From NCBI GenBank assembly GCA_005882995.1, contig VBCY01000047.1, forward strand, positions 1 through 46,743: a stretch of 46,743 nt of DNA, in the 5' to 3' direction. The notes under the pieces are model-generated. The model was not told the DNA's origin. It ran no database searches and worked only from the letters and a program-made list of their open reading frames with translations. Positions 3,688 to 46,271 of the stretch are shown one piece after another. A program made the translations under genes and the position numbers. The DNA is from Betaproteobacteria bacterium (GTDB lineage: Bacteria > Pseudomonadota > Gammaproteobacteria > Burkholderiales > Casimicrobiaceae). Positions within the stretch are counted from its first letter, which is position 1. Every line of letters starts with the position of its first letter.

Positions 3688-5871
3688 ATGTCATATGCAC
3701 TCGTCTTCGCGCTGCTGTGCGCGCTCGCCGCGCTCGTCTACGGCGGCTGGTCGATCAGCTGGATACTCGCGAAGCCCAGCGGCAACGATCGAATGCGCGA
3801 GATCGCGGCAGCGGTCCAGCAGGGCGCGCAAGCCTACTTGAACCGGCAGTACACGACGATCGGCATCGTCGGAGTTATTCTGTTCGTCGTCATCGGTGTG
3901 TTCCTCTCCTGGCGCACCGCGGCCGGATTCGCTATCGGCGCGGTGCTATCAGGGCTCGCCGGTTACATCGGCATGAACGTCTCGGTGCGCTCCAACGTGC
4001 GCACCGCCGAAGCAGCCCGTAGCGGCCTCAATGAAGCGCTTGCGATCGCGTTCCGTGGCGGCGCCATCACCGGGTTGCTCGTCGTCGGGCTCGGGCTCCT
4101 GGGGGTGGCCGGCTTTTACTGGGTCCTGGTCCAGTCGGCGCCCTATGTTCCGAATGGGATGAAAGAAGGGCTGCACGGAACGATCGAGCCGCTCGTTGGA
4201 CTCGCTTTCGGCGGTTCGCTCATCTCCATTTTCGCGCGGTTGGGCGGAGGCATCTTTACCAAAGGCGCCGATGTGGGCGCGGATCTTGTGGGGAAGGTCG
4301 AGGCCGGTATCCCGGAAGATGATCCGCGCAATCCCGCGGTGATTGCCGACAACGTGGGCGATAACGTCGGCGATTGCGCCGGCATGGCGGCGGACCTGTT
4401 CGAAACCTACGCGGTGACCATCGTTGCCACCATGCTCCTCGGCGCTCTGCTGCTGCCGGTCAACGCGGAAGCTGCGGTCACCTATCCGCTGGCGCTCGGC
4501 GGGTTTTCCATTCTCGCCTCGATCGTCGGCTGTTTTTTTGTGAAGGCGAGGCCGGGCGGCAAGATCATGAACGCGCTGTACCGCGGCTTGATGGTCGCGG
4601 GGGCCCTCTCTGCGATCGGCTTCTGGTTCATCACCGATCGTCTCATGGCCGGCGTCGTCGCATCCGATCCGACGCTCTCCACGCTACGCTTGTGGGGAGC
4701 CGGACTGATCGGACTCGCCCTCACCGCGGCGATGGTCGTGATCACCGAGTATTACACGGCGACTGAATTCAAGCCCGTGCGCCATGTCGCGCAAGCGTCG
4801 ACGACCGGTCATGCGACCAACATCATTGCCGGTCTGGGCGTGTCGATGAAGGCCACTGCGTGGCCGGTTATTTCCGTTTGCGTGGCGATTTTCGCTTCCT
4901 ATTGGCTGGCGGGCCTGTACGGCATTGCAATCGCTGCGACGGCGATGCTGTCGATGACCGGCATCATCGTCGCGCTCGACGCCTACGGTCCGATTACCGA
5001 CAACGCCGGCGGCATTGCGGAGATGGCAAAGCTCCCCGATTCGGTGCGCGCGATCACCGATCCGCTCGACGCGGTTGGCAACACGACCAAGGCGGTGACC
5101 AAGGGCTATGCCATCGGCTCGGCAGGGCTCGCGGCGCTGGTGCTGTTTGCCGACTATACCCATGCGCTTCAGGGCGCGAACATCAACGTGAGCTTCGATT
5201 TGTCGGATCGCATGGTGATCATCGGCCTTTTTCTCGGCGGCTTGATCCCTTACCTGTTTGGCTCAATGGCCATGGAAGCGGTGGGTCGCGCGGCGGGCGC
5301 GGTCGTGGTGGAAGTACGGCGGCAATTCCGCGAGATCAAGGGCATCATGGAGGGCACGGCCAAGCCCGAATACGGCGTGGCTGTCGACATGCTGACCAAA
5401 GCAGCGATTCGCGAAATGATCGTGCCTTCGCTGCTGCCGGTATTGGTGCCGGTGATCGTTGGCTTGACGCTGGGTCCGGTCGCACTGGGCGGCCTGCTGA
5501 TGGGCACCATCGTTACCGGCTTGTTCGTCGCCATCTCGATGACAACCGGTGGTGGCGCGTGGGATAACGCCAAGAAGTACATCGAGGACGGCCATCATGG
5601 CGGCAAGGGTTCGGACGCGCACAAGGCTGCCGTGACCGGTGACACGGTCGGCGACCCCTACAAGGACACGGCCGGTCCAGCAGTGAATCCGCTGATCAAG
5701 ATCATCAATATCGTGGCGTTGATGATCGTGCCGCTGCTGGCGATTCACGGCGCCAACAAGCCGGCACCAGCGCCGGCGATGATCAATCCCGTCGCGCCGG
5801 TAGCAGCGCCATCGGCATCGGGCGCCATCTCTCCCGCGGCGGCCCCTGCGCCAACCCCGCCGAAGCAGTAA
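3688..5871 (+). CDS. hppA: K+-independent proton-translocating membrane pyrophosphatase
   Basis: This integral membrane pump couples PPi hydrolysis to proton export. The product is about 727 residues with many hydrophobic segments. The catalytic loop begins [13 protein letters not shown] at residue 195 and continues with [20 protein letters not shown]. The [16 protein letters not shown] segment places Lys at about residue 468; Lys there, in place of Ala, is the established mark of K+-independent H+-PPases. GAGGGRG-like cytoplasmic residues and [18 protein letters not shown] follow near the C-terminus. An unusual Pro/Ala-rich tail of about 35 residues ends the protein. The ATG at 3688 has GAGGGG about 6 bases upstream and is preferred over an adjoining GTG at 3685. 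Confidence 0.97.
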
Positions 5872-5879
5872 TTGGTTTC

Positions 5880-6536
5880 TTAACGCTTACGCGCGACCAT
5901 AACACCGTCGCCCACGGTGAGCAGGCAGGCGTCGACGCGCGTATCGTCGCGAATCTTCAGGTTCATCGCTCGCAGCGCGTCGGTGTCGCTGTCGTGGACT
6001 GCCGGATCGGCGACCTGACCGCCCCAGAGCATATTGTCGAGCGTGATCAAGCCGCCCGGCCGCAGCAGCTTGAGGCATGCTTCGTAATAGGCGTCGTAGC
6101 CGCTCTTGTCGGCATCGATGAAAGCGAAGTCGAACGCACCGGCGCCGAGCTCGCGTAGCAGCCTCTCCAAGGTGTCGCTCGCCGGAGCCAGGCGCAACTC
6201 GATCTTTTGCGCCACGCCGCCCTCAGCCCAATAGCGCCGAGCGATATCGGTCCATTCCTTGCTGACATCGCAGCAGGTGAGCTTGCCGCCGGACGGCAAT
6301 GCCGCTGCGACGGCAAGCGCGCTGTAGCCGGTGAAGGTTCCCACCTCGATCGCTCTGCGCGCGCCGATTGAACGTGCGAGCAGTGCCAGCAAGGCGCCCT
6401 GATCAGCGCTGATTTGCATGCCGCCGTTAGGGAGCTTCGCCGTCTCGGCGCGTAGCCGTCGTTGTACGTCGGTAACGGGGGTAATCTGACCGGCGACGTA
6501 ATCTTCGACGTCGGAGGGAAGGAGCGAGCGGCGCAT
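5880..6536 (-). CDS. class I SAM-dependent O-methyltransferase (CCoAMT-like)
   Basis: Residues read from the ATG at 6536 give LLPSDVEDYVAGQITP, then the SAM-binding motif IEVGTFTGYSALAVA, CDVSKEW, FDFAFIDADKSGYDAYYE and LRPGGLITLDNMLWGG. This is the order of the bacterial family-3 O-methyltransferases that methylate catechol-type hydroxyls using a divalent metal. The length of 218 residues fits. A TTG at 6572 would add 12 residues; its AGGAG lies directly against the codon, so I prefer the ATG. It converges on hppA with only 8 bases between stops and no visible terminator. The substrate is unknown. Confidence 0.88.
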   Translation of the reverse strand: MRRSLLPSDVEDYVAGQITPVTDVQRRLRAETAKLPNGGMQISADQGALLALLARSIGARRAIEVGTFTGYSALAVAAALPSGGKLTCCDVSKEWTDIARRYWAEGGVAQKIELRLAPASDTLERLLRELGAGAFDFAFIDADKSGYDAYYEACLKLLRPGGLITLDNMLWGGQVADPAVHDSDTDALRAMNLKIRDDTRVDACLLTVGDGVMVARKR

Positions 6537-6716: not shown

Positions 6717-7292
6717 ATGAGCGTCCCCGTGCAGCGCCTGGCCGAAAGTGCGCGCCCGCACCTCCTGCAACACTTCCTCAACCTCGCGCCCGATGATGTG
6801 AGGCTGCGCTTCGGCTCGCACCTTGCGCCGGAAGCGATCAGCTATTATGTCGCGGGATTCGATTTTGCATCCGACGCAGTGGTCGGCGTGTATGACCACG
6901 AGCTCGCCTTGAGCGGAGTCGCACATGTCGCCTTCAACGGGAATAGCGCCGAGCTCGGGGTATCGGTGCTGCCAGGACATCGTGGTCAGGGCATCGGCAG
7001 CGCTCTATTCATGCGCGCGGCAGAGCATGCGCGCAACCGCTTCATCACTCGAATCTACATGCACTGTCTCGCTGATAACGCAGCGATGATCCATATCGCG
7101 CGCAAGGCGGGCATGGCCATCTGCGTCGAACAGGGCGAAGCCGACGCCTTCATCGACGTGCCCCACGCAGACGCGATGTCGCTCGCAGGAGAATTTTTTG
7201 GACAGCGTCTCGCGCTCCTCGACTACACACTGAAACAGCACACCGCAGCTTTGAAGCGCATTACCGTTTCGCTAGGTGCCAAAGCCGAATAA
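6717..7292 (+). CDS. GNAT-family N-acetyltransferase
   Basis: The 191-residue product has the acetyl-CoA-binding motif A ELGVSVLPGHRGQGIGSALF in mid-protein and the following helix with RIYMHCLADNAAMIHIARKA, as in GNAT enzymes. The acceptor cannot be told. The ATG at 6717 follows GGAAGGA by about 10 bases. A stronger Shine-Dalgarno, AAGGAGGT at 6681-6688, precedes a three-codon ATG ORF (MEG-stop) at 6698, perhaps a tiny leader or coincidence. The gene overlaps the next one by 17 bases, suggesting coupling. Confidence 0.85.
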   Translation: MSVPVQRLAESARPHLLQHFLNLAPDDVRLRFGSHLAPEAISYYVAGFDFASDAVVGVYDHELALSGVAHVAFNGNSAELGVSVLPGHRGQGIGSALFMRAAEHARNRFITRIYMHCLADNAAMIHIARKAGMAICVEQGEADAFIDVPHADAMSLAGEFFGQRLALLDYTLKQHTAALKRITVSLGAKAE

Positions 7293-8646
7293 CGGTCGCG
7301 GGCCGCCATGCCGGGCGATTGAGCGTTCGACGCCCCATCGCATCGTAATCGTCGGTGGAGGCGCGGGAGGCCTTCCACTCGCGACTGCATTGGGCGACAA
7401 ACTGGCGGCGAAACGTCGCGCCGAAGTGACGCTCGTCGACCGCTACGAGACCCACGTTTGGAAACCGCTGCTGCACGAAGTCGCCGCCGGACGCATGGAT
7501 GCGTATGCACACGACGTCAGCTATCTCGCGGTCGCGCATTGGCACCATTTCCGCTTCCGCCTGGGTTCCGTCGCGGCCATCGACAGGGCTCGCCACGAGC
7601 TCACGCTGCAAGCGGTGCAGGACGACGAGGGGCACGAGATGCTGCCTCGACGCGTGGTGCCTTACGACACGCTTATCTTCTGCGTGGGCAGCACGACCAA
7701 CGATTTCGGCATACCGGGCGTGTCGAAGTACGCGGTCTCGCTGGATACGGCGCTCGATGCCGAGCGCTTTCACCGCCGGCTGCTCGCTGCCAGCGTTCGC
7801 GCTGACGGCGTCGCGGCAGCGGGCAGCGCGTCGGGCATCGACATCGTCATCATCGGCGCCGGGGCGACCGGCGTCGAGCTCGCGGCCGAGATCCGCCAGA
7901 CGACGCGAGCGCACGCCGGCTATGGGCTCGAGCACTTGCGTCCTGCCGAAGACATCCGGCTCACGCTCCTCGAAGCGGCACCTCGCATCCTCCCCCAACT
8001 CAAGGAGCGCATTGCAGTCGCGGCAACCGGGCTGCTCGAACGCCTGCATATTGCCGTGCGAACCGATCAACGTGTGACTGCGGTCGATAAGCGAGGCGTA
8101 CAAACCGCGGCCGGGGACTTCTATCCGGCGGATTTAGTCGTCTGGGCTGCAGGCATCCAGGCGCCGGCATTTCTCGCGCAACTCGACGGACTGGAGGTCA
8201 ATCGCGCCAATCAACTCGTGGTCAAGCCGACGCTGCAAACAACGCGAGACCCGGATGTCTTCGCTTTCGGCGACTGCGCCGCGTGTCCATGGCGAGGGGC
8301 GGGAAAAGATGGAGCGTTGGTACCACCACGGGCGCAAGCCGCGCGCCAGCAGGCCCTGCTCCTGGTGAAGGGCATGAAGGCGCGTCTTGCAGGACGGCCT
8401 CTGCCCGAGTTCGAATTCCGCGATTTCGGGTCTTTGGTGTCGCTGGGCGAGCTGTCGGCCGTCGGCAGTCTCATGGGGCGCCTCATCGGCGGCAGCTTGC
8501 TGATCCAGGGTCTCATTGCGCGCTGGATGTACGCGTCGTTATACAAGCTGCATCAGGTGTCGATTCATGGCTATGCCAAGGTGGCCTTCGATACCCTCGG
8601 GCGCTTCCTGCGCCGCCGGATGGAGCCGCGCGTCAAGCTGCATTGA
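7276..8646 (+). CDS. ndh: type II NADH dehydrogenase (NAD(P)/FAD-dependent oxidoreductase)
   Basis: The 456-residue product has two Rossmann motifs: HRIVIVGGGAGGLPLAT near residue 22 for FAD and IDIVIIGAGATGVELAAEI near 191 for NADH. WKPLLHEVAAGR and VFAFGDCAACPW are typical of non-proton-pumping Ndh-2 enzymes that feed quinones. The C-terminal amphipathic part, including LYKLHQVSIHGYAKVAF, fits peripheral attachment to the inner membrane. GTG at 7276 is the only usable start before the FAD motif and lies inside the GNAT gene, so translation is probably coupled. Confidence 0.92.
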   Translation: MPKPNNGRGPPCRAIERSTPHRIVIVGGGAGGLPLATALGDKLAAKRRAEVTLVDRYETHVWKPLLHEVAAGRMDAYAHDVSYLAVAHWHHFRFRLGSVAAIDRARHELTLQAVQDDEGHEMLPRRVVPYDTLIFCVGSTTNDFGIPGVSKYAVSLDTALDAERFHRRLLAASVRADGVAAAGSASGIDIVIIGAGATGVELAAEIRQTTRAHAGYGLEHLRPAEDIRLTLLEAAPRILPQLKERIAVAATGLLERLHIAVRTDQRVTAVDKRGVQTAAGDFYPADLVVWAAGIQAPAFLAQLDGLEVNRANQLVVKPTLQTTRDPDVFAFGDCAACPWRGAGKDGALVPPRAQAARQQALLLVKGMKARLAGRPLPEFEFRDFGSLVSLGELSAVGSLMGRLIGGSLLIQGLIARWMYASLYKLHQVSIHGYAKVAFDTLGRFLRRRMEPRVKLH

Positions 8647-21128: not shown

Positions 21129-21495
21129 GGGGGCGACCTGGTTTCGACGGGGACTGCGAAGCAGCGCGGGGCATGCCAAGGTGCAGAACCTTGTGAATCC
21201 TCTGCAATCGCAAACTTAACTGCGAACGACGAAACATACGCTCTGGCGGCTTAATCCCGCCGGACCTCGCACCGGGCGGCGCTCAGCCCGGGTGATGTAA
21301 AAGTCACAGCGAGGACATTCTGAGCGATCGCGTGCGTCCGGGCCACTTGGGCGACACGTTAAAGCTAGGTGGCTGGCATCGGCGTCGCCTGTCCGTCAGT
21401 GGCGCCGGAGTGAGAGGTTGAATGACGAGGCTAAGCATGTAGTCCCGACTGTGTAGTGTTTCCGGACGCGGGTTCGATCCCCGCCGCCTCCACCA
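21129..21495 (+). ncRNA. ssrA: transfer-messenger RNA (tmRNA), one-piece
   Basis: The 5' end GGGGGCGACCTGGTTTCGAC and the 3' end GGGTTCGATCCCCGCCGCC, followed by TCCACCA, are the two halves of the tRNA-like domain. GGGGGCG pairs with CGCCTCC through 7 positions with one G-U, and the CCA is encoded. The resume codon is GCG at 21222; the tag reads ANDETYALAA, then TAA (21222-21254). The tag ends ALAA as needed for ClpXP and matches the Neisseria-type tag, supporting a betaproteobacterium. tmRNA frees stalled ribosomes together with SmpB, which is not in this window. Confidence 0.98.
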
Positions 21496-37155: not shown

Positions 37156-37833
37156 CTACTTTCCCCGGGACAAGGTGGCGATCAGTTTGTCGCTGCCTTT
37201 GTTGTGGGGGCCGGCGCGGACCAGGATGTCGGGTGGCAGCAGCGGCTTCTTCTGGTAGTAGACCTCGTTCCAGTCGTTGGACGAAGTGATCACCGTGCCG
37301 TCCAGATTCAGGCCGCCGTAGATACCCTTGGCGCGGCTGAAGGTAATGAAGTCGGCAATGATGTCGGACTTGGCCCCCGCCCCTATAGGACCCGCGGCGA
37401 CGCTCGCATCACCGCCCAGCTTCACAGAGGTCGCCAGCAGCGAATTGAAGCCCTTATCCGTCATGACCAGAGTCACATTTTCAGACACCGAAACGCCGGC
37501 CTGGAAGCCGACGCTCGCAGTCGCCACTGTATAGAAAGCGGGCCCGACCCACCTGCCATTCGAGCCGCGTGCAAGGACAACCGCTCGCCCACCGGAACCG
37601 CCAAAAATGAATCCGGCCTTGAGCAATTCCGGCGCAATCATCACGGCCTTGGCGCGGCCGATGTTCTGCTGCAGCCAGCCCATGTCCGGATCACGCATGA
37701 AATTCGAAAGTGAGGCGTTCGCCTGATCGACCAGCTTCTGTTGTTCACCTTGCGCGAGCGCGACGCTGCTGGCGACGATCAGCACCGACATCAGCAACCC
37801 GCGAGCGAAGTGCGTAACGTACGTTTTCTTCAT
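37156..37833 (-). CDS. exported SYLF (YSC84-like) lipid-binding domain protein
   Basis: The 225-residue product has a signal peptide (RGLLMSVLIVASSVALAQG). The SYLF domain covers most of the rest: RAKAVMIAPELLKAGFIFGG, SGGRAVVLARGSNGRWVGPA, FYTVATASVGFQAGVSVSEN and AGPIGAGAKSDIIADFITFS, followed by RAKGIYGGLNLDGTVI. Eukaryotic SYLF domains bind phosphoinositides; bacterial ones are periplasmic and poorly characterised, but lipid binding is the common theme. A perfect TATAAT (37883-37888) lies upstream. It neighbours two glycine-zipper proteins and an MCE lipid transporter. Confidence 0.93.
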   Translation of the reverse strand: MKKTYVTHFARGLLMSVLIVASSVALAQGEQQKLVDQANASLSNFMRDPDMGWLQQNIGRAKAVMIAPELLKAGFIFGGSGGRAVVLARGSNGRWVGPAFYTVATASVGFQAGVSVSENVTLVMTDKGFNSLLATSVKLGGDASVAAGPIGAGAKSDIIADFITFSRAKGIYGGLNLDGTVITSSNDWNEVYYQKKPLLPPDILVRAGPHNKGSDKLIATLSRGK

Positions 37834-37882
37834 TGGGATCTCCGTTCGGATTCTAGTGACGTAGAGTTCGCCTGCGGTCCCG

Positions 37883-37888
37883 ATTATA
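37883..37888 (-). promoter_or_regulatory. -10 element of the SYLF gene
   Basis: A perfect minus-strand TATAAT lies 50 bases before the SYLF ATG. The -35 region (TGTCTG at 17 bases) is poor, so an activator may be needed. Confidence 0.4.
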
Positions 37889-37930
37889 CCTCGACGCGCC
37901 TTTGCCAGACAGCGTCGGTCTCGTGTCGGT

Positions 37931-38380
37931 TCAGTGCAGCGGCTCCAGTCCTCGATCGGTTACCAGCACGCGTTCGCCGACGTGAAATGGGGGCGATGAC
38001 GATTGCCTGATCGTTCCCCAGGTGCGATCGTCGTACCTCACCGCGATCTCGTACACCACGTGGGTCTTCGACTTTTCGAGGTTGTGCCCGACGTACCCTC
38101 CGCCTACCGCGCCGACGATGGTCGCCACGGTACGACCCGTGCCGCTTCCGATCAGGCTCCCCAGACCGCCGCCGATGAGTCCTCCGGCGACCAAGCCCAA
38201 TCCGCTCGGATTGCTGTTCTGCTGAACAACCTCGCGTATCGATTCAATGGTTGCGGGACGCGCCGAGCTTACGCTGTAGCTTTGCGCCGACGCGCTCACG
38301 GGCAGCACCAGCGCAAGCAAAAACAGTGCGATGCCGTTTGCAAATCGTTCACGCAGACTGAAATCGCTTACCTGTTTCAT
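37931..38380 (-). CDS. exported glycine-zipper (Rick_17kDa/SlyB-like) protein, copy 1
   Basis: The 149-residue product starts at the ATG at 38380 with a signal peptide (GIALFLLALVLPVSASAQ). The mature N-terminus has ATIESIREVVQ, then the glycine zipper GLVAGGLIGGGLGSLIGSGT and GRTVATIVGAVGGGYVGHN, then EIAVRYDDRTWGTIRQ and HVGERVLVTDRGLEPL. Glycine zippers form paired membrane helices in outer-membrane proteins of the 17-kDa antigen/SlyB group. It has no lipobox, unlike its neighbour, which it closely resembles over the whole length; the two arose by tandem duplication. Confidence 0.9.
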   Translation of the reverse strand: MKQVSDFSLRERFANGIALFLLALVLPVSASAQSYSVSSARPATIESIREVVQQNSNPSGLGLVAGGLIGGGLGSLIGSGTGRTVATIVGAVGGGYVGHNLEKSKTHVVYEIAVRYDDRTWGTIRQSSSPPFHVGERVLVTDRGLEPLH

Positions 38381-38403
38381 ATTCTCTCCTGCGCAACGGC
38401 GCT

Positions 38404-38847
38404 TCATGGCTGCAGCAGTTCGACACCGCGATCGCTGACCACCACTCGATCGCCAACGTGCAGACCCATGGGCGAGTTCTGCTGAATTGTCGCCCACGTG
38501 CCGTCGTCATAGCGCACGCTGATCTGGTAGACGACCTGCGTTTGCGATTTCTCGACCTGGTTGCCGATGTAGCCGCCGCCGACCGCTCCTACGACGGTGG
38601 CGACGGTGCGCCCCGTTCCGCCACCGACGAGACTGCCGAGTCCCCCGCCCACCAGACCGCCAATGATCATGCCGGCGCCGGAGGGATCCTTGTTCTGGAC
38701 GACTTCGCGCACCGATTCCACTGTGCCCGTGCGCGCGACGGGCGCGCTCGTCACCTCATACGCGGGTTGCGACCCGCAGCTCAGGAGCGTCGCCATGGCA
38801 ACGGCCCACAGCACGCCCCAACGGATAACTTCGATGATCATCTGCAT
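38404..38847 (-). CDS. glycine-zipper lipoprotein (Rick_17kDa/SlyB-like), copy 2
   Basis: The 147-residue product starts at the ATG at 38847 and has a lipobox (MATLLSCGS), so it should be a lipoprotein. GTVESVREVVQ, GMIIGGLVGGGLGSLVGGGT, GRTVATVVGAVGGGYIGN, QISVRYDDGTWATIQQ and HVGDRVVVSDRGVELL give the same order as copy 1. Its gene starts 44 bases after the SBP gene, on the same strand. The C-terminal beta-domain could face the periplasm. A SlyB-like role in outer-membrane integrity is plausible but not shown. Confidence 0.9.
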   Translation of the reverse strand: MQMIIEVIRWGVLWAVAMATLLSCGSQPAYEVTSAPVARTGTVESVREVVQNKDPSGAGMIIGGLVGGGLGSLVGGGTGRTVATVVGAVGGGYIGNQVEKSQTQVVYQISVRYDDGTWATIQQNSPMGLHVGDRVVVSDRGVELLQP

Positions 38848-38891
38848 GCGTCGCTTATCCTCACCGTGGTCGACCCAGAGAAGTCTATGGC

Positions 38892-39749
38892 TCATTCCGG
38901 AATGGAGTTGAGAACATACATCGCCGCAAGCAGCCCGCTGGGACGTCCGAGCTTGCCCAGCCACTTGTTGAAGATCGGATCAATCTCGCCGGAGAGATAA
39001 ATCTGGGTGAGCGCGCTGTTGACGACGAGGCGGTACCCGGAGTCGTTGCGCGGCAGCATGAAAGCGTAAGGCTCGAAGGAGAGATCCTCGGCGAGCATCG
39101 CGAAGACCTTCGGATCCTTGGCCTGAGCCGCCAGGCCGATCAGCTTGATCTTGTCGCTCGCGAAGGCGGCGACGGCCCGGGACTCGAGCATTGCTGTACC
39201 TTCAACGCCATCCTTCACCGTTACGACCTTGGCGTTGATGAGCCTGTCCTTGAGCATCGCGTTCAATCGACGCTCGGTAGTCGTGCCCGAGGTCACCGCG
39301 ACAGACTTACCGGCGAGATCGGCAAAGCCGTTGATCGGGCCGTCCGCGCGGATCAGAAAGCCGCCACCGTCGACAAAAATGAGACTGCTGAAATCGACGT
39401 TCTTCATGCGCGACTGCGACGCCGTCGTGTTGGCGCATTCGAGATCGGCTTTGCCCGTAGATACCATCGCAATGCGATTCGGCACCGTGTCGACGAGCCA
39501 GTTGATCTTGAGCTCGGGGATGCCGACCGCACGGCCGATGGCGGCGATCACCCTTTTGCAAAGGTCGACCGAATAACCCGCGGGCTGATTGTTGCTCTCT
39601 ATGTAGGAGAAGGGCAGCGAGTCACCGGCAACCGCCACCGTGATCGATCCTGCAGCCTTGATCTTCGAGAGCGTATCCGGCGCATTCTGGGCAAGTGCGG
39701 CGGGTGCGATAACGACGGATGCGACGATGGCGAACAGCAGACGTTTCAC
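38892..39749 (-). CDS. periplasmic amino-acid-type solute-binding protein (PBP2 fold)
   Basis: The 285-residue product starts at a GTG at 39749 with AGGGA 7 bases upstream. The signal peptide is KRLLFAIVASVVIAPAALAQ. The SBP_bac_3 pattern follows: LSKIKAAGSITVAVAGDSLP, FSYIESNNQPAGYSVDLCKR, ECANTTASQSRMKNVDFSS, IFVDGGGFLIR and KSVAVTSGTTTERRLN. Members with EC-TT-S-R are GltI-like, for glutamate/aspartate or related acids. No permease or ATPase of that ABC class is in the window. Instead it sits with glycine-zipper genes, mirrored by a second SBP at 39932. Confidence 0.93.
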   Translation of the reverse strand: MKRLLFAIVASVVIAPAALAQNAPDTLSKIKAAGSITVAVAGDSLPFSYIESNNQPAGYSVDLCKRVIAAIGRAVGIPELKINWLVDTVPNRIAMVSTGKADLECANTTASQSRMKNVDFSSLIFVDGGGFLIRADGPINGFADLAGKSVAVTSGTTTERRLNAMLKDRLINAKVVTVKDGVEGTAMLESRAVAAFASDKIKLIGLAAQAKDPKVFAMLAEDLSFEPYAFMLPRNDSGYRLVVNSALTQIYLSGEIDPIFNKWLGKLGRPSGLLAAMYVLNSIPE

Positions 39750-39780
39750 GATGGGCTCCCTGGAGTGACAATTGGCGCGG

Positions 39781-39821
39781 TTGCCAGGCGCAAAACAATG
39801 GCAACCGGAGAATTGATTATA
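39781..39821 (-). promoter_or_regulatory. -10 and possible operator in the divergent SBP promoter region
   Basis: A perfect minus-strand TATAAT is at 39816-39821, 67 bases before the GTG of the leftward SBP gene. Just downstream of it lies the inverted repeat TTGCCA-N12-TGGCAA (39781-39804), placed where a repressor could act. On the plus strand TGCTAAACT at 39865-39873 could be an extended -10 for the rightward SBP gene. Confidence 0.4.
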
Positions 39822-39931
39822 GCCCACCGGTCGTCCCGCACCGGGATTGGAGCGAAGCGACACATGCTAAACTTTGCGGCAGACCTATTGAGTTTGCGCG
39901 TCACCCGCGTGAGACTCGTTTGAGGAGAGCC

Positions 39932-40760
39932 ATGCCGAGTCGCATCCGCCGCCGTTGCATTGCATGGTATCTGCTGGCCTTCGTCGCTGTGTGGACGACG
40001 GCAGCCGCGGGCCCGTCACGCACGCTCGACCGCATCAAGGATGAGGGCACGATTCATCTGGGCTATCGCAGCGGCGCAGCGCCTTTTTCCTTCAAGGAGC
40101 GAAACGGCATCGTGCGCGGGTACAGCGTTGAGCTGTGCACGCGCATTGCGTCGATTCTGCAGAAACAGCTTGGGCTATCGAAGCTCTCGGTCGAGTGGAT
40201 GCCGGTTGACGCGAGCGACCGCCTCGAGGCTGTCGCGTCAGGAAAGGTCGACATCGAATGCGGGACCACGACCATTGCGCTATCGCGCATGGAGCGCGTC
40301 GATTTCAGCGTGCCGATTTTTGTCGACGGTGGCAGCGTCCTCACCAAGCTCGACGCCAAGATCAGCCGGCTTGCGGATCTCAACGGCAAGCGCGTGGCGG
40401 TGATCCCTGGTACGACGACCGAGACCGCGCTCAAGCGTGAGCTAGGCATCGTTGAGGCCAAGGTCGAGATCGTGCCCGTCCGGCGGCTACGCCGGAGATC
40501 GCATCGTGCTCATCTCTTTGCGTGCCGGCAGTCGCGATCCGTCCAGCCTTGCATTGCTGGGCTCGGATTTCTCCTACGAGCCTTACGCGCTGATCGTTCG
40601 CCGAGATGATCCCGACTTCCGCCTGGCGGTCAACCGTGCGCTCGTGGGGATTTACCGCAGCGGAGAAATAGACACCATTTTCGAGCGCTGGCTGGGTGCG
40701 CTCGGTGCGCCCGGTCCCCTTTTGCACTCGATGTTTTACTTGAGCACGCTGCCCGAATGA
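39932..40760 (+). pseudogene. second amino-acid-type solute-binding protein, frameshifted
   Basis: The ATG at 39932 (GAGGAGA before it) opens a signal peptide and LDRIKDEGTIHLGYRSGAAP, then GYSVELCTRIASIL, ECGTTTIALSRMERVDFSVP, IFVDGGSVLTK, VAVIPGTTTE and VEIVPV. At about 40479 the frame shifts by one and continues GGYAGDRIVLISLRAG, DFSYEPYALIVRRDDPDFRL and YRSGEIDTIFERWLGALGAP to the TGA at 40758. Against the intact paralogue at 38892 about 15 residues (DGVEGTAMLESRAVA region) are missing, so a 44-47 base deletion fits. The junction coincides with a perfect hairpin TCCGGCG-GCTA-CGCCGGA (40479-40496). Confidence 0.85.
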
Positions 40761-41281
40761 AACGCTCTACAGAGCTCTACATGTTCGCGCTGTGCGCTTT
40801 AGTGGCAGCATGGCTCGGCGTTCCAGCGTCTGCGCAAGCGCCGCCGCCCTTGCAAGCGCCACTGACGCTGCCGCCGCCGATTCTTTCGTCGCCGGGGACC
40901 CCATCGTCAACATCGGCAACGCCAGCGCTCGGGACTACCGGCTGCGATCGCTGCGGCACGGTGGACTCGATTCGCCAGGTCGTCACCAAGGATCAATGGA
41001 CGCCTCTGGGCAGCGTGCCGTCTTCCGCCGACGTCGGCACCTCCAGCATGACGATGTATCAGATCGGCAAAGGCTTCACCAACCAGGGTCAGGTACTGGT
41101 CGGCGCGGCTGGCGGTACTGTTTATCGTACCCAGCCCAACCAGCGCAATATCACGCGCTGGGAGGTGAGCGTTCGCATGGACGATGGCAGCACGCGGACT
41201 TTGACCCAGAACTACGAACCCCTGCTGCAGGTCAGCGACCGGGTCCGCGTCTTCGGAACGCAGATCGAGCTCGTGCAGTGA
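40757..41281 (+). CDS. exported envelope protein related to the glycine-zipper pair but lacking the zipper
   Basis: The 174-residue product has a signal peptide (FALCALVAAWLGVPASAQA), a Pro-rich stretch, then CDRCGTVDSIRQVV and, at the end, RWEVSVRMDDGSTRTLTQ, YEPLLQVSDRVRVFG and TQIELVQ. The first and last parts match GTVESVREVVQ and ISVRYDDGTWATIQQ plus HVGDRVVVSDRGVELL of the protein at 38404, while the glycine zipper between is replaced by a Gly-poorer segment with GQVLVGAAGG. Its ATG overlaps the SBP stop (ATGA) and its TGA overlaps the next GTG, so it is translated inside a tightly coupled operon. It has two extra cysteines (CDRC). Confidence 0.82.
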   Translation: MKRSTELYMFALCALVAAWLGVPASAQAPPPLQAPLTLPPPILSSPGTPSSTSATPALGTTGCDRCGTVDSIRQVVTKDQWTPLGSVPSSADVGTSSMTMYQIGKGFTNQGQVLVGAAGGTVYRTQPNQRNITRWEVSVRMDDGSTRTLTQNYEPLLQVSDRVRVFGTQIELVQ

Positions 41282-42432
41282 CCGCGCTTGACAGCGCCGT
41301 CGCCGCGCCGGCAATCGCGACGCTGGCGGTCGCCAATGCGACCGACGGCAGCCGCGAATTGCGGCTGGCGGGCAGACTCGACGCTTATTCGATCGCCGGC
41401 GTCTGGTGGCAAGCGCGCGCTGAGGTGCAGCGCATGCGGGACCGGCGCATTGTCATCGACGCAACCGCTGTCGACTACTGTGATGGCGGGGGCGTCGCAA
41501 TGCTCGTCGATCTTCTGCGCCAGGAGCGGCCACCCACTGCTCCTGTCGTCGTGCGTGGGCTAAAGCGCGAGTTCCAGACACTGCTCGACCAGTTCGATCC
41601 AGCATCGTTGCGTGCTCCCGCCGGGGCGCCGCCGGAGCGATTGCGGTCGGTCGAGGAAATCGGCCGAGCCGCACTGATCGTCGAACGCGACATCGTCACC
41701 CAGATCGCCTTTATCGGCGAGACCAGCTCCGCAATCTGGTACGCCATCCGCAACCCGCACCGCGTGCGCTGGAAGGATGTCTGGTATACCTGCGAACAAG
41801 TCGGCGTCAATGCTCTGCCGATCGTCGCGCTGATTTCTTTCCTGCTCGGCCTAATCATCGCGTTCCAGTCGGCGGTGCCGATGCGCCAGTACGGAGCTGA
41901 GCTGTTCGTCGCTGACCTGGTCGGTCTTTCCATTCTGCGCGAATTGGGCCCGCTGATGACAGCGATTCTGCTCGCTGGGCGCTCGGGCGCTGCGTTTGCC
42001 GCCGAGATCGGAACGATGAAAGTCAACGAAGAGCTCAATGCGCTCACCACCATGGGACTTGATCCGGTGCGCTTCCTGGTGGTGACGCGAATCATCGCCG
42101 CATTACTGACGGTGCCGCTGCTGACTCTTTTTGCAGACGTCATCGGGATTTTTGGCGGCGCTGTAACCATGGTGAGCTTCAACATTCCCATTCTTGCTTA
42201 TCTGCGTGAGATCGACACGCTGGTCGACGTCAAGGATCTATGGGCAGGGCTCGCCAAGGCGCCGGCCTTCGCCATTCTGATCGCTGGAATCGGTTGCCTC
42301 AGGGGTCTGCAAACTCAGAGCGGAGCCAGCGCCGTCGGCATTTCTGCAACGCGCGCCGTCGTCTCGGGCATCATTCTGCTGGTCGTCGTCGACGGTATCT
42401 ACGCCTTCATCTACTATCTGCTGGACATCTGA
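41278..42432 (+). CDS. mlaE: MlaE-type permease with N-terminal STAS domain
   Basis: The 384-residue product starts at a GTG overlapping the preceding TGA. Residues about 10-105 form a STAS domain (LRLAGRLDAYSIAGVWW, IVIDATAVDYCDGGGVAMLV), equivalent to the separate MlaB. The rest is the MlaE permease: VGVNALPIVALISFLLGLII, AFQSAVPMRQYGAELFVADL, ILRELGPLMTAILLAGRSGA, AFAAEIGTMKVNEELNALTT and MGLDPVRFLVVTRI. It is the inner-membrane core of an MCE phospholipid transporter. STAS fusion is known in this family. A longer upstream reading is out of frame with the real neighbour and rejected. Confidence 0.95.
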   Translation: MTALDSAVAAPAIATLAVANATDGSRELRLAGRLDAYSIAGVWWQARAEVQRMRDRRIVIDATAVDYCDGGGVAMLVDLLRQERPPTAPVVVRGLKREFQTLLDQFDPASLRAPAGAPPERLRSVEEIGRAALIVERDIVTQIAFIGETSSAIWYAIRNPHRVRWKDVWYTCEQVGVNALPIVALISFLLGLIIAFQSAVPMRQYGAELFVADLVGLSILRELGPLMTAILLAGRSGAAFAAEIGTMKVNEELNALTTMGLDPVRFLVVTRIIAALLTVPLLTLFADVIGIFGGAVTMVSFNIPILAYLREIDTLVDVKDLWAGLAKAPAFAILIAGIGCLRGLQTQSGASAVGISATRAVVSGIILLVVVDGIYAFIYYLLDI

Positions 42433-42451
42433 AACGCCTCGTTCGAGGTAC

Positions 42452-43216
42452 ATGCCCGCTGATCCGATCATTCGCGTTGAGAATCTCAGTGCCGGTTACG
42501 ACGGCGCAGTGATCATGCGAAACGTGAACTTCACCGTCAATCGCGGCGAAGTGTTCGTTATTCTCGGAGCCTCCGGGGGCGGCAAGAGCACGCTGCTCAA
42601 GCACATGATCGGCCTCTACCAACCCTTGACGGGACGAGTGTTTATCGACGGCGACGACATCGTCAGCGCAGAGGGAGAGGCGCGCTACGCGATCCTGAAG
42701 AAGATCGGCGTGATGTACCAGAGCGGAGCTCTGTTCGGGTCGATGACGCTACTCGAGAATGTTCGTCTTGCGCTTGAGGAGTACACAGCACTCGACGACG
42801 ACGCCATGGACCTGCTCGCAAGGACCAAGCTGCGACTGGTCGGTCTCGACGCGTTCGCAGGGCACATGCCCGCGGAATTAAGCGGCGGAATGCAAAAGCG
42901 GGCGGCGATCGCGCGCGCGATGGCGCTCGATCCGATGATTCTGTTCCTCGACGAGCCATCCGCGGGTCTGGACCCGATCACGTCGGCGACGCTCGATGAG
43001 CTCATTCTGCGGCTCGCGGACAGCCTGCACATCACCTTCGTCATCGTCACGCACGAGCTGGCGAGCATCTACACCGTCGCCGACCGGGTGATCATGCTCG
43101 ACAGACGCAAGCAGGGAATCATTGCCGAGGGCGATCCCAAGGTCTTGCGCGATACCAGCGATGACCCATGGGTGCGTCAGTTCTTCCGGCGCGAAGCTGC
43201 TGTCGAGCCCGCCTGA
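42452..43216 (+). CDS. mlaF: MlaF-type ABC ATPase of the MCE transporter
   Basis: The 254-residue ATPase has Walker A GASGGGKS at 39-46, the Q-loop in VMYQSGALFGSMT, signature LSGGMQKR at 143-150, Walker B ILFLDEPS at 163-170 and the switch His201 in IVTHELASI. SGALFGSMTLLENV and GGMQKR (rather than GGQ) are typical of the MlaF/Ttg2A group. It lies 19 bases after mlaE and 3 bases before mlaD, so the subunits are made together. Confidence 0.96.
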   Translation: MPADPIIRVENLSAGYDGAVIMRNVNFTVNRGEVFVILGASGGGKSTLLKHMIGLYQPLTGRVFIDGDDIVSAEGEARYAILKKIGVMYQSGALFGSMTLLENVRLALEEYTALDDDAMDLLARTKLRLVGLDAFAGHMPAELSGGMQKRAAIARAMALDPMILFLDEPSAGLDPITSATLDELILRLADSLHITFVIVTHELASIYTVADRVIMLDRRKQGIIAEGDPKVLRDTSDDPWVRQFFRREAAVEPA

Positions 43217-43219
43217 CCG

Positions 43220-44284
43220 ATGAGCGCACGGGCGAACTTTTTCAAGATCGGCCTGTTTGTCATCGGTGCGACCGCGGCGCTGGTCGTGCTGCTGGTACTG
43301 CTGGGCGCAGGGAAGCTGTTCCAGACCAAGATCGTGATGGAGACGTATTTCAACGAGTCGGTCCAGGGACTGGAGCTCGGCTCCAAGGTCAAGTATCGAG
43401 GCGTCATCGTCGGCGAAGTGAAGAGCATCGGCTTTACCTATACCCGATACCAGCTCGACAAGCCGATGGCCGACCGCTTGCGCTACGTCATGGTGGAAGC
43501 GACCATCCTGCCGCGGCTGATCGGCGGACGCGCGGGAGCCGGAGACCTCACGCGGGCGGACACCGCCAAGGCGGAGATCGAGAAAGGCTTGCGGGTGCGG
43601 CTCGCGCCGCAGGGAATCACCGGCACGAGTTATCTGGAAATCGATTACGTGGATTCCAAGAACAATCCAATCCTGCCCATCTCCTGGGAACCGGACAATC
43701 TCTACATCCCCAGTGCGACCTCGACGGTGACTCAATTCGTCGCTGCCGCATCGGACATCGTCGACCGGCTGCGCAAGCTCGATCTCGACACGACGTTCGC
43801 CAACCTGAACCGGCTGCTGGTGACGACCAACAGCCGCATCGAGGCAGTCGATTCGGCGAAGATATCCGACCAGACCAAGCAGGTCTTGGGCAAGCTCGAC
43901 ACGAAGCTCGATCAGCTGCCAATGGACAAGATCGGCAAGGAAGGGACCGCGCTGCTCGCGGAACTGCGTACGACCAACGAGCGGCTCGGCTCCATTCTCA
44001 ACGATCCGGCGTGGAAAACGCTGCCGGGCAATACCGATGCTGCGCTCGCTGGCGCTAGAAAGCTGGTCCAGGATCCCAATCTTCCGAGCGCCATTGCCCA
44101 TCTGCAGCGCACCCTTGCCCGCCTCGATCGCCTCATGGGCGGTGGCGAAGCTGATCTGTCAGCGACACTCGACAACCTGCGACAGATCACCGACAACCTT
44201 CGCGATCTCACTGAGAATGCCAAGCGCTATCCCTCCGGCGTTCTTCTTGGCGAGCCGCCGCCGCCGATCAAAGGTTCCCCATGA
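43220..44284 (+). CDS. mlaD: MlaD-type MCE domain protein
   Basis: The 354-residue product has one N-terminal membrane helix (IGLFVIGATAALVVLLVLLG) and then an MCE domain (TYFNESVQGLELGSKVKYRG, VIVGEVKSIGF, EKGLRVRLAPQGITGTSYLE). The remaining 180 residues are helical and rich in regularly spaced Leu/Asn/Asp (FANLNRLLVTTNSRIEAVDS, LSATLDNLRQITDNLRDLTE), a likely coiled-coil needle. It is longer than E. coli MlaD and closer to the long MCE proteins that bridge the periplasm. Its TGA overlaps the ATG of the auxiliary lipoprotein gene. Confidence 0.94.
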   Translation: MSARANFFKIGLFVIGATAALVVLLVLLGAGKLFQTKIVMETYFNESVQGLELGSKVKYRGVIVGEVKSIGFTYTRYQLDKPMADRLRYVMVEATILPRLIGGRAGAGDLTRADTAKAEIEKGLRVRLAPQGITGTSYLEIDYVDSKNNPILPISWEPDNLYIPSATSTVTQFVAAASDIVDRLRKLDLDTTFANLNRLLVTTNSRIEAVDSAKISDQTKQVLGKLDTKLDQLPMDKIGKEGTALLAELRTTNERLGSILNDPAWKTLPGNTDAALAGARKLVQDPNLPSAIAHLQRTLARLDRLMGGGEADLSATLDNLRQITDNLRDLTENAKRYPSGVLLGEPPPPIKGSP

Positions 44285-45051
44285 TGCTTTTTCGCCGCTG
44301 CTCTGATTCACTCGCGGTTCGCGTGGTGGTCGCGGGCCTCGCTTGTGTGCTTGCGGCTTGCACCTTATCGCGGCCATCGCCGGTCAAGCAGACCTACCTC
44401 TTGGTGGTCACTTTGCCGACAAAGCCGTCAACCGCGCCACGCCCCGGGACACTCAAGATCGGCGTCATGGGAGTTGCCGCGCCGTTTCGCGGCAAAGTGC
44501 TGGTTTATCGCGAAACGGATCTGAAGTACGAGACGGATTTCTACAACGAATTCCTGGTGTCTCCAACGGCAATGCTGACGGATGCCGCCAGCGCGTGGCT
44601 CGCCGCCGCGCACGTCTTTCGCGGCGTTCTTCCGGCATCGGCCAATACGGAAGGCGATTTCGTACTCGAGGGCTTCGTGAGCGAGTTCTATGGCGACTTC
44701 CGCGACGTATCGAAACCTGCGGCTGTGATTACCGCGAAGTTCTTCCTGATCGACAATCGCAGCCTGGGTGGCGTGCCGATGTGGCAGATCGAGCTGACGC
44801 AACGGGTTCCGATCAATGGCCGCAACGCCGATGCGCTCGTCACCGGATTGAACACGGCATGGGGCGCGATGCTCGCCGAGCTCGCGAAACAGCTTGTCAC
44901 TGTCCCTTTGCCGGAAAGCGCGCCGTCGGCGGTGGTTCCCAAGGATCAGAACAGTGGTACTTTTTGCGCGCGCTCCGCGATGGGCTGCCCTTTGCCCGCC
45001 GCAGTCGCCTCATCGGCGATACCGACCCAACCGCCTCCCATCGCTTTGTAG
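44281..45051 (+). CDS. ABC-type transport auxiliary lipoprotein (PqiC/DUF330-like), with antisense-overlapping 3' extension
   Basis: The 256-residue product has a lipobox (ACVLAACTLSRP), then KQTYLLVVTLP, LKIGVMGVAAPFRGKVLVYR, YETDFYNEFLVSPTAMLTDA and EGDFVLEGFVSEFYGDFRDV. This is the PqiC-type lipoprotein that pairs with MCE transporters and would sit in the outer membrane. Family members usually end soon after the helix seen here as TAWGAMLAELAKQLVTV. The last 35 codons (44946-45051) lie antisense to the end of the outer-membrane channel gene and look like read-through beyond a lost stop. The start overlaps the mlaD stop. Confidence 0.88.
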   Translation: MMLFRRCSDSLAVRVVVAGLACVLAACTLSRPSPVKQTYLLVVTLPTKPSTAPRPGTLKIGVMGVAAPFRGKVLVYRETDLKYETDFYNEFLVSPTAMLTDAASAWLAAAHVFRGVLPASANTEGDFVLEGFVSEFYGDFRDVSKPAAVITAKFFLIDNRSLGGVPMWQIELTQRVPINGRNADALVTGLNTAWGAMLAELAKQLVTVPLPESAPSAVVPKDQNSGTFCARSAMGCPLPAAVASSAIPTQPPPIAL

Positions 45052-46271
45052 ATGTTCACGCTCGAGGAAAAGACCTGAGCGCGGACCGAAGCGAGTGTGA
45101 GCTCGGCCGGAAACAGCGATTGCTCCGCCTGCAGGACCGTGGTGTAGGAGGTGTAACCGTTGTTGTATTGAAGCGTCGCAAGGCGGGCGTAATCTTTCAG
45201 CGCCGCGACCAGGCGGCCTTGTGCAGCAACTTGCTCCTGCAGCTTCTGGCTGGCAACAAGGGCATTGGCGACGTCGGCAAAGGCATTCTGGATCGACTGC
45301 TGATAGCCATAAAGGGCCGCCTGCTGTCCGGCCTGCGCCTGCGCGACCTGGCCGCTTACCGCACCGAAGGTGAAGATCGGACCCACCGCCTGGCCCGCGT
45401 AATTCCATACACGCGCTGGCCCGGTAAAGAGATTCGACAGGTCACCGCTGGCGCGGCCGAACGCGCCGGTCAGCGAAATCGTCGGAAAGTAAAGCGCCTT
45501 GGCTGCGCCGATCTGCGCATTGGCGGCGATGAGCTGCTGCTCCGATTGCATCAGATCCGGCCGTCTTTCCAGGAGCTGCGAGGGGATTCCGGACGGCACA
45601 GACGGTAGCATGAGCTCAGCGATTGACTTGCCGCGCGCAATCGATCCCGGATTGCGTCCGAGCAGTATGGACAGCGCGTTCTCGGTCTGAGCGATCTGCG
45701 ACTCGATCTGCGGGATCTGCGCCGCGGCGGTCTCGTATTCAGATTGGACCTGGGCGACGTTCATCTGTGAAACCTGACCATACTTGAACTGCAGCTCGAA
45801 GAGCTTGATGTAATCGCTGGCGACCGAGGCGACCAACGACAGGATCATGCCGCGGCGCGCGTCATCGGACGCGAGGACGTTGGCGAGAGCTGCTTCGCTC
45901 TGGCGACGGATGCGCCCCCAGAGGTCGATCTCCCAGCTTGCCGTGAGCAGAGCCTGGTACGCGGTCTGCGGGTTCGGGAGCCTAGCCGCTTCCCGGCTGA
46001 GTCCCGCTTCCGTGGTCCGCACCTTCTCTCCCGTCGCTGTGTAACCGATCTGCGGGAAGAGCTGCGAGCGCGTTTGCGTGAGCACGCCTGCCGCCTGCTC
46101 GACGTTGGCGACTGCGATGTTGAGATTGACGTTGTTGGCAAGCGCTTCGTCGATCATCGTGTCGAGCACCGGATCTCCGAAACGCTTCCACCACGCGGTA
46201 TCCGCTGTTTCCGCCACCGCCTTAGGCTCGAAGCGAAACTCGGTCGGAGTATCGAACTTGGGACGCTGCAA
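44946..46271 (-). CDS. NodT/OprM-type outer-membrane efflux channel, 5' end apparently damaged
   Basis: The 441-residue frame starts RPKFDTPTEFRF, the sequence that normally follows a signal peptide, lipobox Cys and GPDYQ. TAWWKRFGDPVLDTMIDEAL, NNVNLNIAVANVEQA, ASWEIDLWGRIRRQSEAALA, SQLLERRPDLMQSEQQLIAA and QYNNGYTSYTTVLQAEQSLF are typical of RND outer-membrane factors. Only a TTG (46271) is available in frame, with a TAG upstream near 46352. An ATG at 46288, next to the RND stop, opens MRTLV in another frame, as if the signal-peptide part were deleted with a frameshift. As read, the protein would not be exported. Confidence 0.85.
   Translation of the reverse strand: MQRPKFDTPTEFRFEPKAVAETADTAWWKRFGDPVLDTMIDEALANNVNLNIAVANVEQAAGVLTQTRSQLFPQIGYTATGEKVRTTEAGLSREAARLPNPQTAYQALLTASWEIDLWGRIRRQSEAALANVLASDDARRGMILSLVASVASDYIKLFELQFKYGQVSQMNVAQVQSEYETAAAQIPQIESQIAQTENALSILLGRNPGSIARGKSIAELMLPSVPSGIPSQLLERRPDLMQSEQQLIAANAQIGAAKALYFPTISLTGAFGRASGDLSNLFTGPARVWNYAGQAVGPIFTFGAVSGQVAQAQAGQQAALYGYQQSIQNAFADVANALVASQKLQEQVAAQGRLVAALKDYARLATLQYNNGYTSYTTVLQAEQSLFPAELTLASVRAQVFSSSVNIYKAMGGGWVGIADEATAAGKGQPIAERAQKVPLF

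Follow-up and report, generated by a model that had tools for sequence, protein, structure and literature searches.

Why would a bacterium place amino-acid-type binding proteins, with no permease of their own, at the head of a lipid transporter operon? The question is raised by a locus in a 46,743-nt stretch of contig VBCY01000047.1 (the window) from an uncultured soil bacterium, in which two gene groups diverge from a single intergenic region (Table 1). The order, strands and families of the genes agree with the original prediction. The leftward arm encodes a solute-binding protein (SBP_L), two glycine-zipper proteins (GZ_B and GZ_A) and a SYLF domain protein, and the rightward arm a second solute-binding protein (SBP_R), a zipper-less protein (ZL) and four transporter components: a STAS-MlaE permease, an MlaF-like ATPase, MlaD and an auxiliary lipoprotein (AuxLP). 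Our comparisons point to one module present twice, SBP_R with ZL and SBP_L with the zipper lipoprotein GZ and SYLF, each consisting of a permease-less SBP derived from the glutamate-binding protein GltI and a SlyB-family partner, and each a putative accessory on the transporter operon. Judged from the sequences, the chances appear evenly balanced that these SBPs are ligand-binding accessories of outer-membrane phospholipid homeostasis and not nutrient importers.

The transporter itself is of a known kind. By its domain content the rightward operon is an Mpc-type (Mla-Pqi chimeric) MCE lipid transporter, with STAS and MlaE fused in one 384-amino-acid protein (PF13466, PF02405). The canonical Mla set is incomplete, as no gene for the MlaC shuttle was found between MlaD and AuxLP or around them among the open reading frames of the window searched with Pfam. 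The Mpc system was described in Brucella abortus as mpcEFDA, a four-gene operon found across the Hyphomicrobiales, and systems of this type presumably span the envelope with no need of a shuttle (PMC12436622). The recently named architecture is now extended to the Burkholderiales. The profile scores of AuxLP are weak, falling below cut-offs of 26 bits for PF03886 and 250 bits for NF047772 (Table 1), with PqiC at 18.4 bits, and the protein is some 45 amino acids longer than its relatives. The genome as a whole has five MCE-domain matches, spread over four contigs.

Coupling of the module to this operon was assessed across the window's family (f1; 64 genomes), taking matches above 100 bits as ZL orthologues. 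Such orthologues occur in 14 of them, distributed over three genera. SBP_R is followed by ZL in all 13 family loci, and ZL by STAS-MlaE in all 12 with contig context, although in L084 an extra periplasmic-type gene (7289-7861, a secreted-looking protein of 190 amino acids with no Pfam family) stands between the two. Of the 17 SBP_L loci with context, 12 have a zipper protein as the next gene, and SYLF lies downstream of SBP_L in nine family loci. The layout is beyond chance because it recurs in three genera. The neighbourhood is conserved beyond this contig, and most family loci retain the 4-base stop/start overlap of SBP_R and ZL. In the window, overlaps of this length were found at three of the five rightward joints, SBP_R/ZL (ATGA, 40757), ZL/MlaE (GTGA, 41278) and MlaD/AuxLP (ATGA, 44281), in line with the several that had been predicted; the remaining joints are gapped, by 19 nt between MlaE and MlaF and by 3 nt between MlaF and MlaD.

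The pairing also recurs outside the family. An order-level survey of 349 genomes returned 40, the window's own included, with close relatives of SBP_L or SBP_R. A SlyB-like gene lies directly downstream of the SBP in 12 of 43 outside loci, and a lipid-envelope gene (mlaA, pldA, asmA, pqiB/C or SYLF) lies within ~4.5 kb in 11 of the 43 as against none of 40 random loci from the same genomes (p 4e-4), the lipid-gene seeds having been drawn from some of the same loci and the controls searched with identical seeds. In family f210 the order is mlaA, pldA, SBP, with ZL next in the genome whose contig continues. In six of the seven f201 genomes with the SBP, a single-copy pldA follows on the same strand at a distance of 0.7-2.9 kb, the seventh having no pldA. 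The stop-start overlap of SBP and ZL is present in all six f201 and f210 loci read. The occurrence of the SBP/SlyB-like pair near PldA, MlaA, AsmA or PqiB-type genes elsewhere supports a role in envelope lipid handling. To that extent the shared lipid role put forward in the original prediction has gained ground, while the role as such is still read from neighbourhood. Among 274 genomes drawn from the class, no ZL orthologue other than the window's own was found. Two complete genomes of another family, L232 and L231, have a clade SBP beside a response regulator (a sigma-54 activator), L232 with a sensor kinase as well, an arrangement that resembles GlrK-GlrR/QseEF.

The SBPs of the module form a lineage of their own. 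In a tree of 86 SBPs, in which intact orthologues stand in for the window's broken SBP_R, 65 permease-less proteins are split, with support of 100/100, from GltI proteins of the canonical and permease-linked kinds. The permease-less clade is thus strongly supported, and it derives from glutamate-binding proteins; the closest solved structures to SBP_L are 2ia4/2vha. Permease genes occur in just five loci, all of a separate branch, and the loci of the clade have no His/Glu-type permease, as the original prediction required of relatives. An amino-acid transporter operon is ruled out, there being no permease nearby. Within the clade, SBP_R clusters with loci of f201 and f210 (100/89) and SBP_L with other orphan SBPs from outside the family (100/99). 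Because each groups separately with relatives outside the family, the two are, on the tree, old lineages; that the SBP and its envelope gene were recently duplicated in tandem is ruled out by the tree, and the mirror image first described is two ancient modules meeting. Values of dN/dS (nonsynonymous over synonymous change) of ~0.13-0.28 for SBP_R, SBP_L and ZL suggest purifying selection on all three, synonymous change being near saturation in some pairs.

What the SBPs may bind can be read from the pocket. In an alignment with GltI, the whole clade retains R75, T92 (T or S in a few members), R97, T140 and D182. H164, present in 23 of 23 canonical or permease-linked rows, is lost in every clade group counted, and R24 is present in SBP_R and lost in SBP_L. 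The SBP_bac_3 domain is readily recognized (E 9e-24 in SBP_L), while R24 and H164 together, and adjacent GltJKL genes, as expected of a GltI-type uptake protein, were looked for and not found. The division of these residues into backbone and side-chain contacts is taken here to be that of the GltI structure. On this basis the ligand may well resemble an alpha-amino acid without being Glu or Asp, and the retained backbone contacts argue for an amino-acid-like ligand over bulk lipid.

The partner proteins are linked by family. Both GZ_A and GZ_B score above the cut-off for the PF05433 glycine zipper 2TM domain, and their profile matches solved SlyB (7ojf) at E 1.4e-14; a Cys at the signal end was looked for in GZ_A and is absent, whereas GZ_B has a lipoprotein signal with LLSC. 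ZL has no Pfam match and no glycine zipper, and its CxxC is invariant. Profile comparison with hhalign (98.7%, E 1.7e-16 against the GZ profile) nevertheless identifies ZL as a distant SlyB-family member. Hence the relatedness of two glycine-zipper proteins and a zipper-less one stands as predicted, and the family can now be named. A search of the ZL profile against the PDB returned repeat-protein artefacts only. The top Foldseek match of the ZL model was again SlyB 7ojf, not significantly so; given shallow alignments and mean pLDDT (model confidence) of 59 for ZL and 55 for SBP_L, we place little weight on it. SlyB of E. coli (PDB 7ojf) reportedly encapsulates outer-membrane proteins in lipid nanodomains.

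Under the mechanism we propose, the SBP would bind a small alpha-amino-acid-like ligand in the periplasm, its closure would act on the SlyB-family partner, and the partner would tune outer-membrane phospholipid handling, through the presumed Mpc bridge here and through PldA or MlaA-PldA in relatives. No amino acid would be delivered to a permease. A wider version, for which the chances fall clearly short of even, is that an amino-acid-type SBP and the SlyB-family protein co-translated with it serve as a ligand-gated regulator common to several outer-membrane phospholipid systems of the Burkholderiales (Mpc, MlaA-PldA, perhaps AsmA and PqiBC). Little is settled about how outer-membrane lipid transporters are told when to act and on what cargo. 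A fixed SBP/SlyB-family pair travelling with several lipid systems would offer a direct handle on it, and would test SBPs as envelope regulators and not merely as nutrient catchers. The recurrence with outer-membrane lipid genes suggests an accessory part of lipid housekeeping not yet described; within the set of papers searched there was no published link between SBP, SlyB and MlaE, and while the transporter is known, we found no description in that set of the attached SBP-SlyB modules or of their recurrence with other lipid systems.

Several observations weigh against an accessory role in lipid homeostasis. The module and lipid genes are linked, but all functional steps rest on that neighbourhood, from which we infer the role. 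Many SBPs outside the clade, too, have no permease next to them, so that being an orphan is by itself weak evidence. Loci of the same family are not independent of one another, and counted by family the lipid association is 6 of 13 versus 0 of 9 (~0.02). No SBP adjoins the more distant Mpc-like loci outside the family (Ectothiorhodospira, Iodobacter, Verrucomicrobia and others). Within f1, a pldA linked to the module was sought and not found, and PldA is absent from the window's genome. The Mpc operon also occurs in several members of the family that have neither SBP nor ZL, and the module is therefore dispensable. In some others SBP_L alone faces MlaE. By eye, relatives without SBP_R and ZL (L053, L055, L083, L085 and L086) have genes for a BMP/nucleoside-type ABC transporter or of xanthine-dehydrogenase type upstream of the Mpc operon, and in L054, where SBP_R is intact, cytochrome-bd-type oxidase genes (4178-6406) stand upstream of it in place of the SBP_L arm.

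The rival that survives best is that these are ordinary uptake SBPs which all feed one amino-acid permease encoded at another site, and that they lie near envelope genes through co-regulation only. The GltI fold and backbone contacts are what such proteins would have, and it is common for SBPs of these genomes to be encoded away from any permease. However, co-translation with a SlyB-like gene is fixed across families, lipid-gene neighbours recur, the GltI His164 position is lost and a conserved C-terminal tail is not found in canonical members; we regard ordinary uptake as unlikely. Decidedly unlikely is neighbourhood drift, an inherited operon in which the SBP pair and the lipid genes are functionally unrelated. 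Gene content does vary among close relatives and SBP_R has decayed in places, as drift would have it, yet the pair occurs in five families (f1, f11, f13, f201 and f210) with different lipid genes nearby in several, and the 4-base overlaps are kept at large divergence. Least probable of the three is an MlaC-like periplasmic lipid shuttle, its fold adapted to carry a lipid whose head resembles an amino acid, for instance a serine phospholipid: the operon without MlaC, the recurring lipid-gene neighbours and the precedent of BstB, a phosphonate-type SBP that binds sterols and is encoded with sterol genes (PMC10942540), speak for it, but the pocket retains residues suited to the backbone of a free amino acid, Mpc-type systems presumably reach across the envelope unaided (PMC12436622) and many Mpc loci have no SBP.

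In the window's own genome the proposed accessory is only partly preserved. SBP_R is not one open frame; its two halves occupy different frames, and alignment with intact relatives in L060 and L054 places the absence of 44 nt at ~40477-40482. Translation of SBP_R would stop at 40609, ~150 nt before ZL, and coupling of the two is therefore probably lost. The original prediction that SBP and envelope protein are translationally tied to the transporter is thus not supported here, SBP_R being broken. A programmed frameshift is not favoured, as relatives are intact in one frame and the window copy is 44 nt short; the gap may be an assembly fault of a metagenome-assembled genome. L248 has merely a short SBP_R remnant beside MlaE, so that decay of the SBP_R arm is not unique to this genome, in which the arm is decaying and SBP_L alone is intact.

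Table 1. Features of the divergent locus (window positions) and the basis of their assignment.
Feature	Position	Strand	Basis
SYLF (Ysc84, PF04366) domain protein	37156..37833	-	PF04366 E 2e-29; NCBIfam BPSL1445-like match below cut-off
GZ_A, SlyB-family glycine-zipper protein without lipobox Cys	37931..38380	-	PF05433 E 7e-8; aligned with GZ_B
GZ_B, SlyB-family glycine-zipper lipoprotein, lipobox LLSC	38404..38847	-	PF05433 E 1e-8
SBP_L, intact periplasmic amino-acid-type binding protein, permease-less clade	38892..39749	-	PF00497 E 9e-24; tree position
Divergent intergenic region SBP_L/SBP_R, 182 bases	39750..39931	.	Coordinates
SBP_R, broken binding-protein gene	39932..40760	+	Halves in two frames; 44-nt gap versus L060, L054
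ZL, SlyB-like, zipper-less, CxxC	40757..41281	+	Orthologues in 14 family genomes; profile match to GZ
STAS-MlaE permease (MpcE-like)	41278..42432	+	PF02405 E 5e-71 and PF13466 E 3e-11
MlaF-like ATPase (MpcF-like)	42452..43216	+	Top NCBIfam match MlaF 184 bits, under equivalog cut-off
MlaD (MpcD-like), single MCE, long C-terminal region, 354 amino acids	43220..44284	+	PF02470 residues 41-142; PqiB 76 bits
AuxLP, ABC-transport auxiliary lipoprotein (putatively MpcA/PqiC-like)	44281..45051	+	PF03886 23.4 bits; NF047772 91.5 bits; lipobox LAAC

The length of the divergent region had been predicted correctly, and a sigma-70-type promoter consensus was looked for there and not found. At the other end, the AuxLP gene overlaps a convergent outer-membrane efflux protein gene (44946-46271, minus strand) by 106 nt (44946-45051), and in several relatives (L084, L088, L092, L248 and L249) the Mpc operon has a gene of TolC type after it. 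Farther off, the window has a tmRNA gene at 21129-21495 with the tag ANDETYALAA and, between 3685 and 20934, genes for an H+-pyrophosphatase, a prolyl oligopeptidase, an M13 peptidase, an FtsH-type protease, Mfd and a mannose-1-phosphate guanylyltransferase.

Each part of the locus can be set beside a known system. The SBPs resemble the GltI/DEBP glutamate-aspartate binding protein (PDB 2vha, 2ia4) in fold and backbone-binding positions, and differ from it in that the clade has no His164, SBP_L has no Arg24, a C-terminal tail usually ending in (I/L)PE has been added and permease genes are missing. Like SlyB, GZ_A and GZ_B have a glycine zipper and a C-terminal beta region, of which ZL has the C-terminal region; unlike SlyB, GZ_A has no lipobox, ZL has a CxxC and no zipper, and the pairing with an SBP is fixed. 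BstB is likewise a periplasmic binding protein encoded alongside lipid genes, but belongs to PF12974 and has a hydrophobic pocket, whereas the SBPs here belong to PF00497 (PMC10942540). The closest likeness of the transporter is to Brucella abortus Mpc (PMC12436622), which shares the STAS-MlaE fusion, the MlaF ATPase, an elongated single-MCE MlaD (331 amino acids there, 354 here) and the lack of MlaC in the operon; its last gene encodes a PqiC-like lipoprotein, to which AuxLP is a putative counterpart. The locus described here departs from it in its Burkholderiales host, in the overlapping SBP and SlyB-like genes at the 5' end, and in a second arm with SBP, SlyB and SYLF genes.

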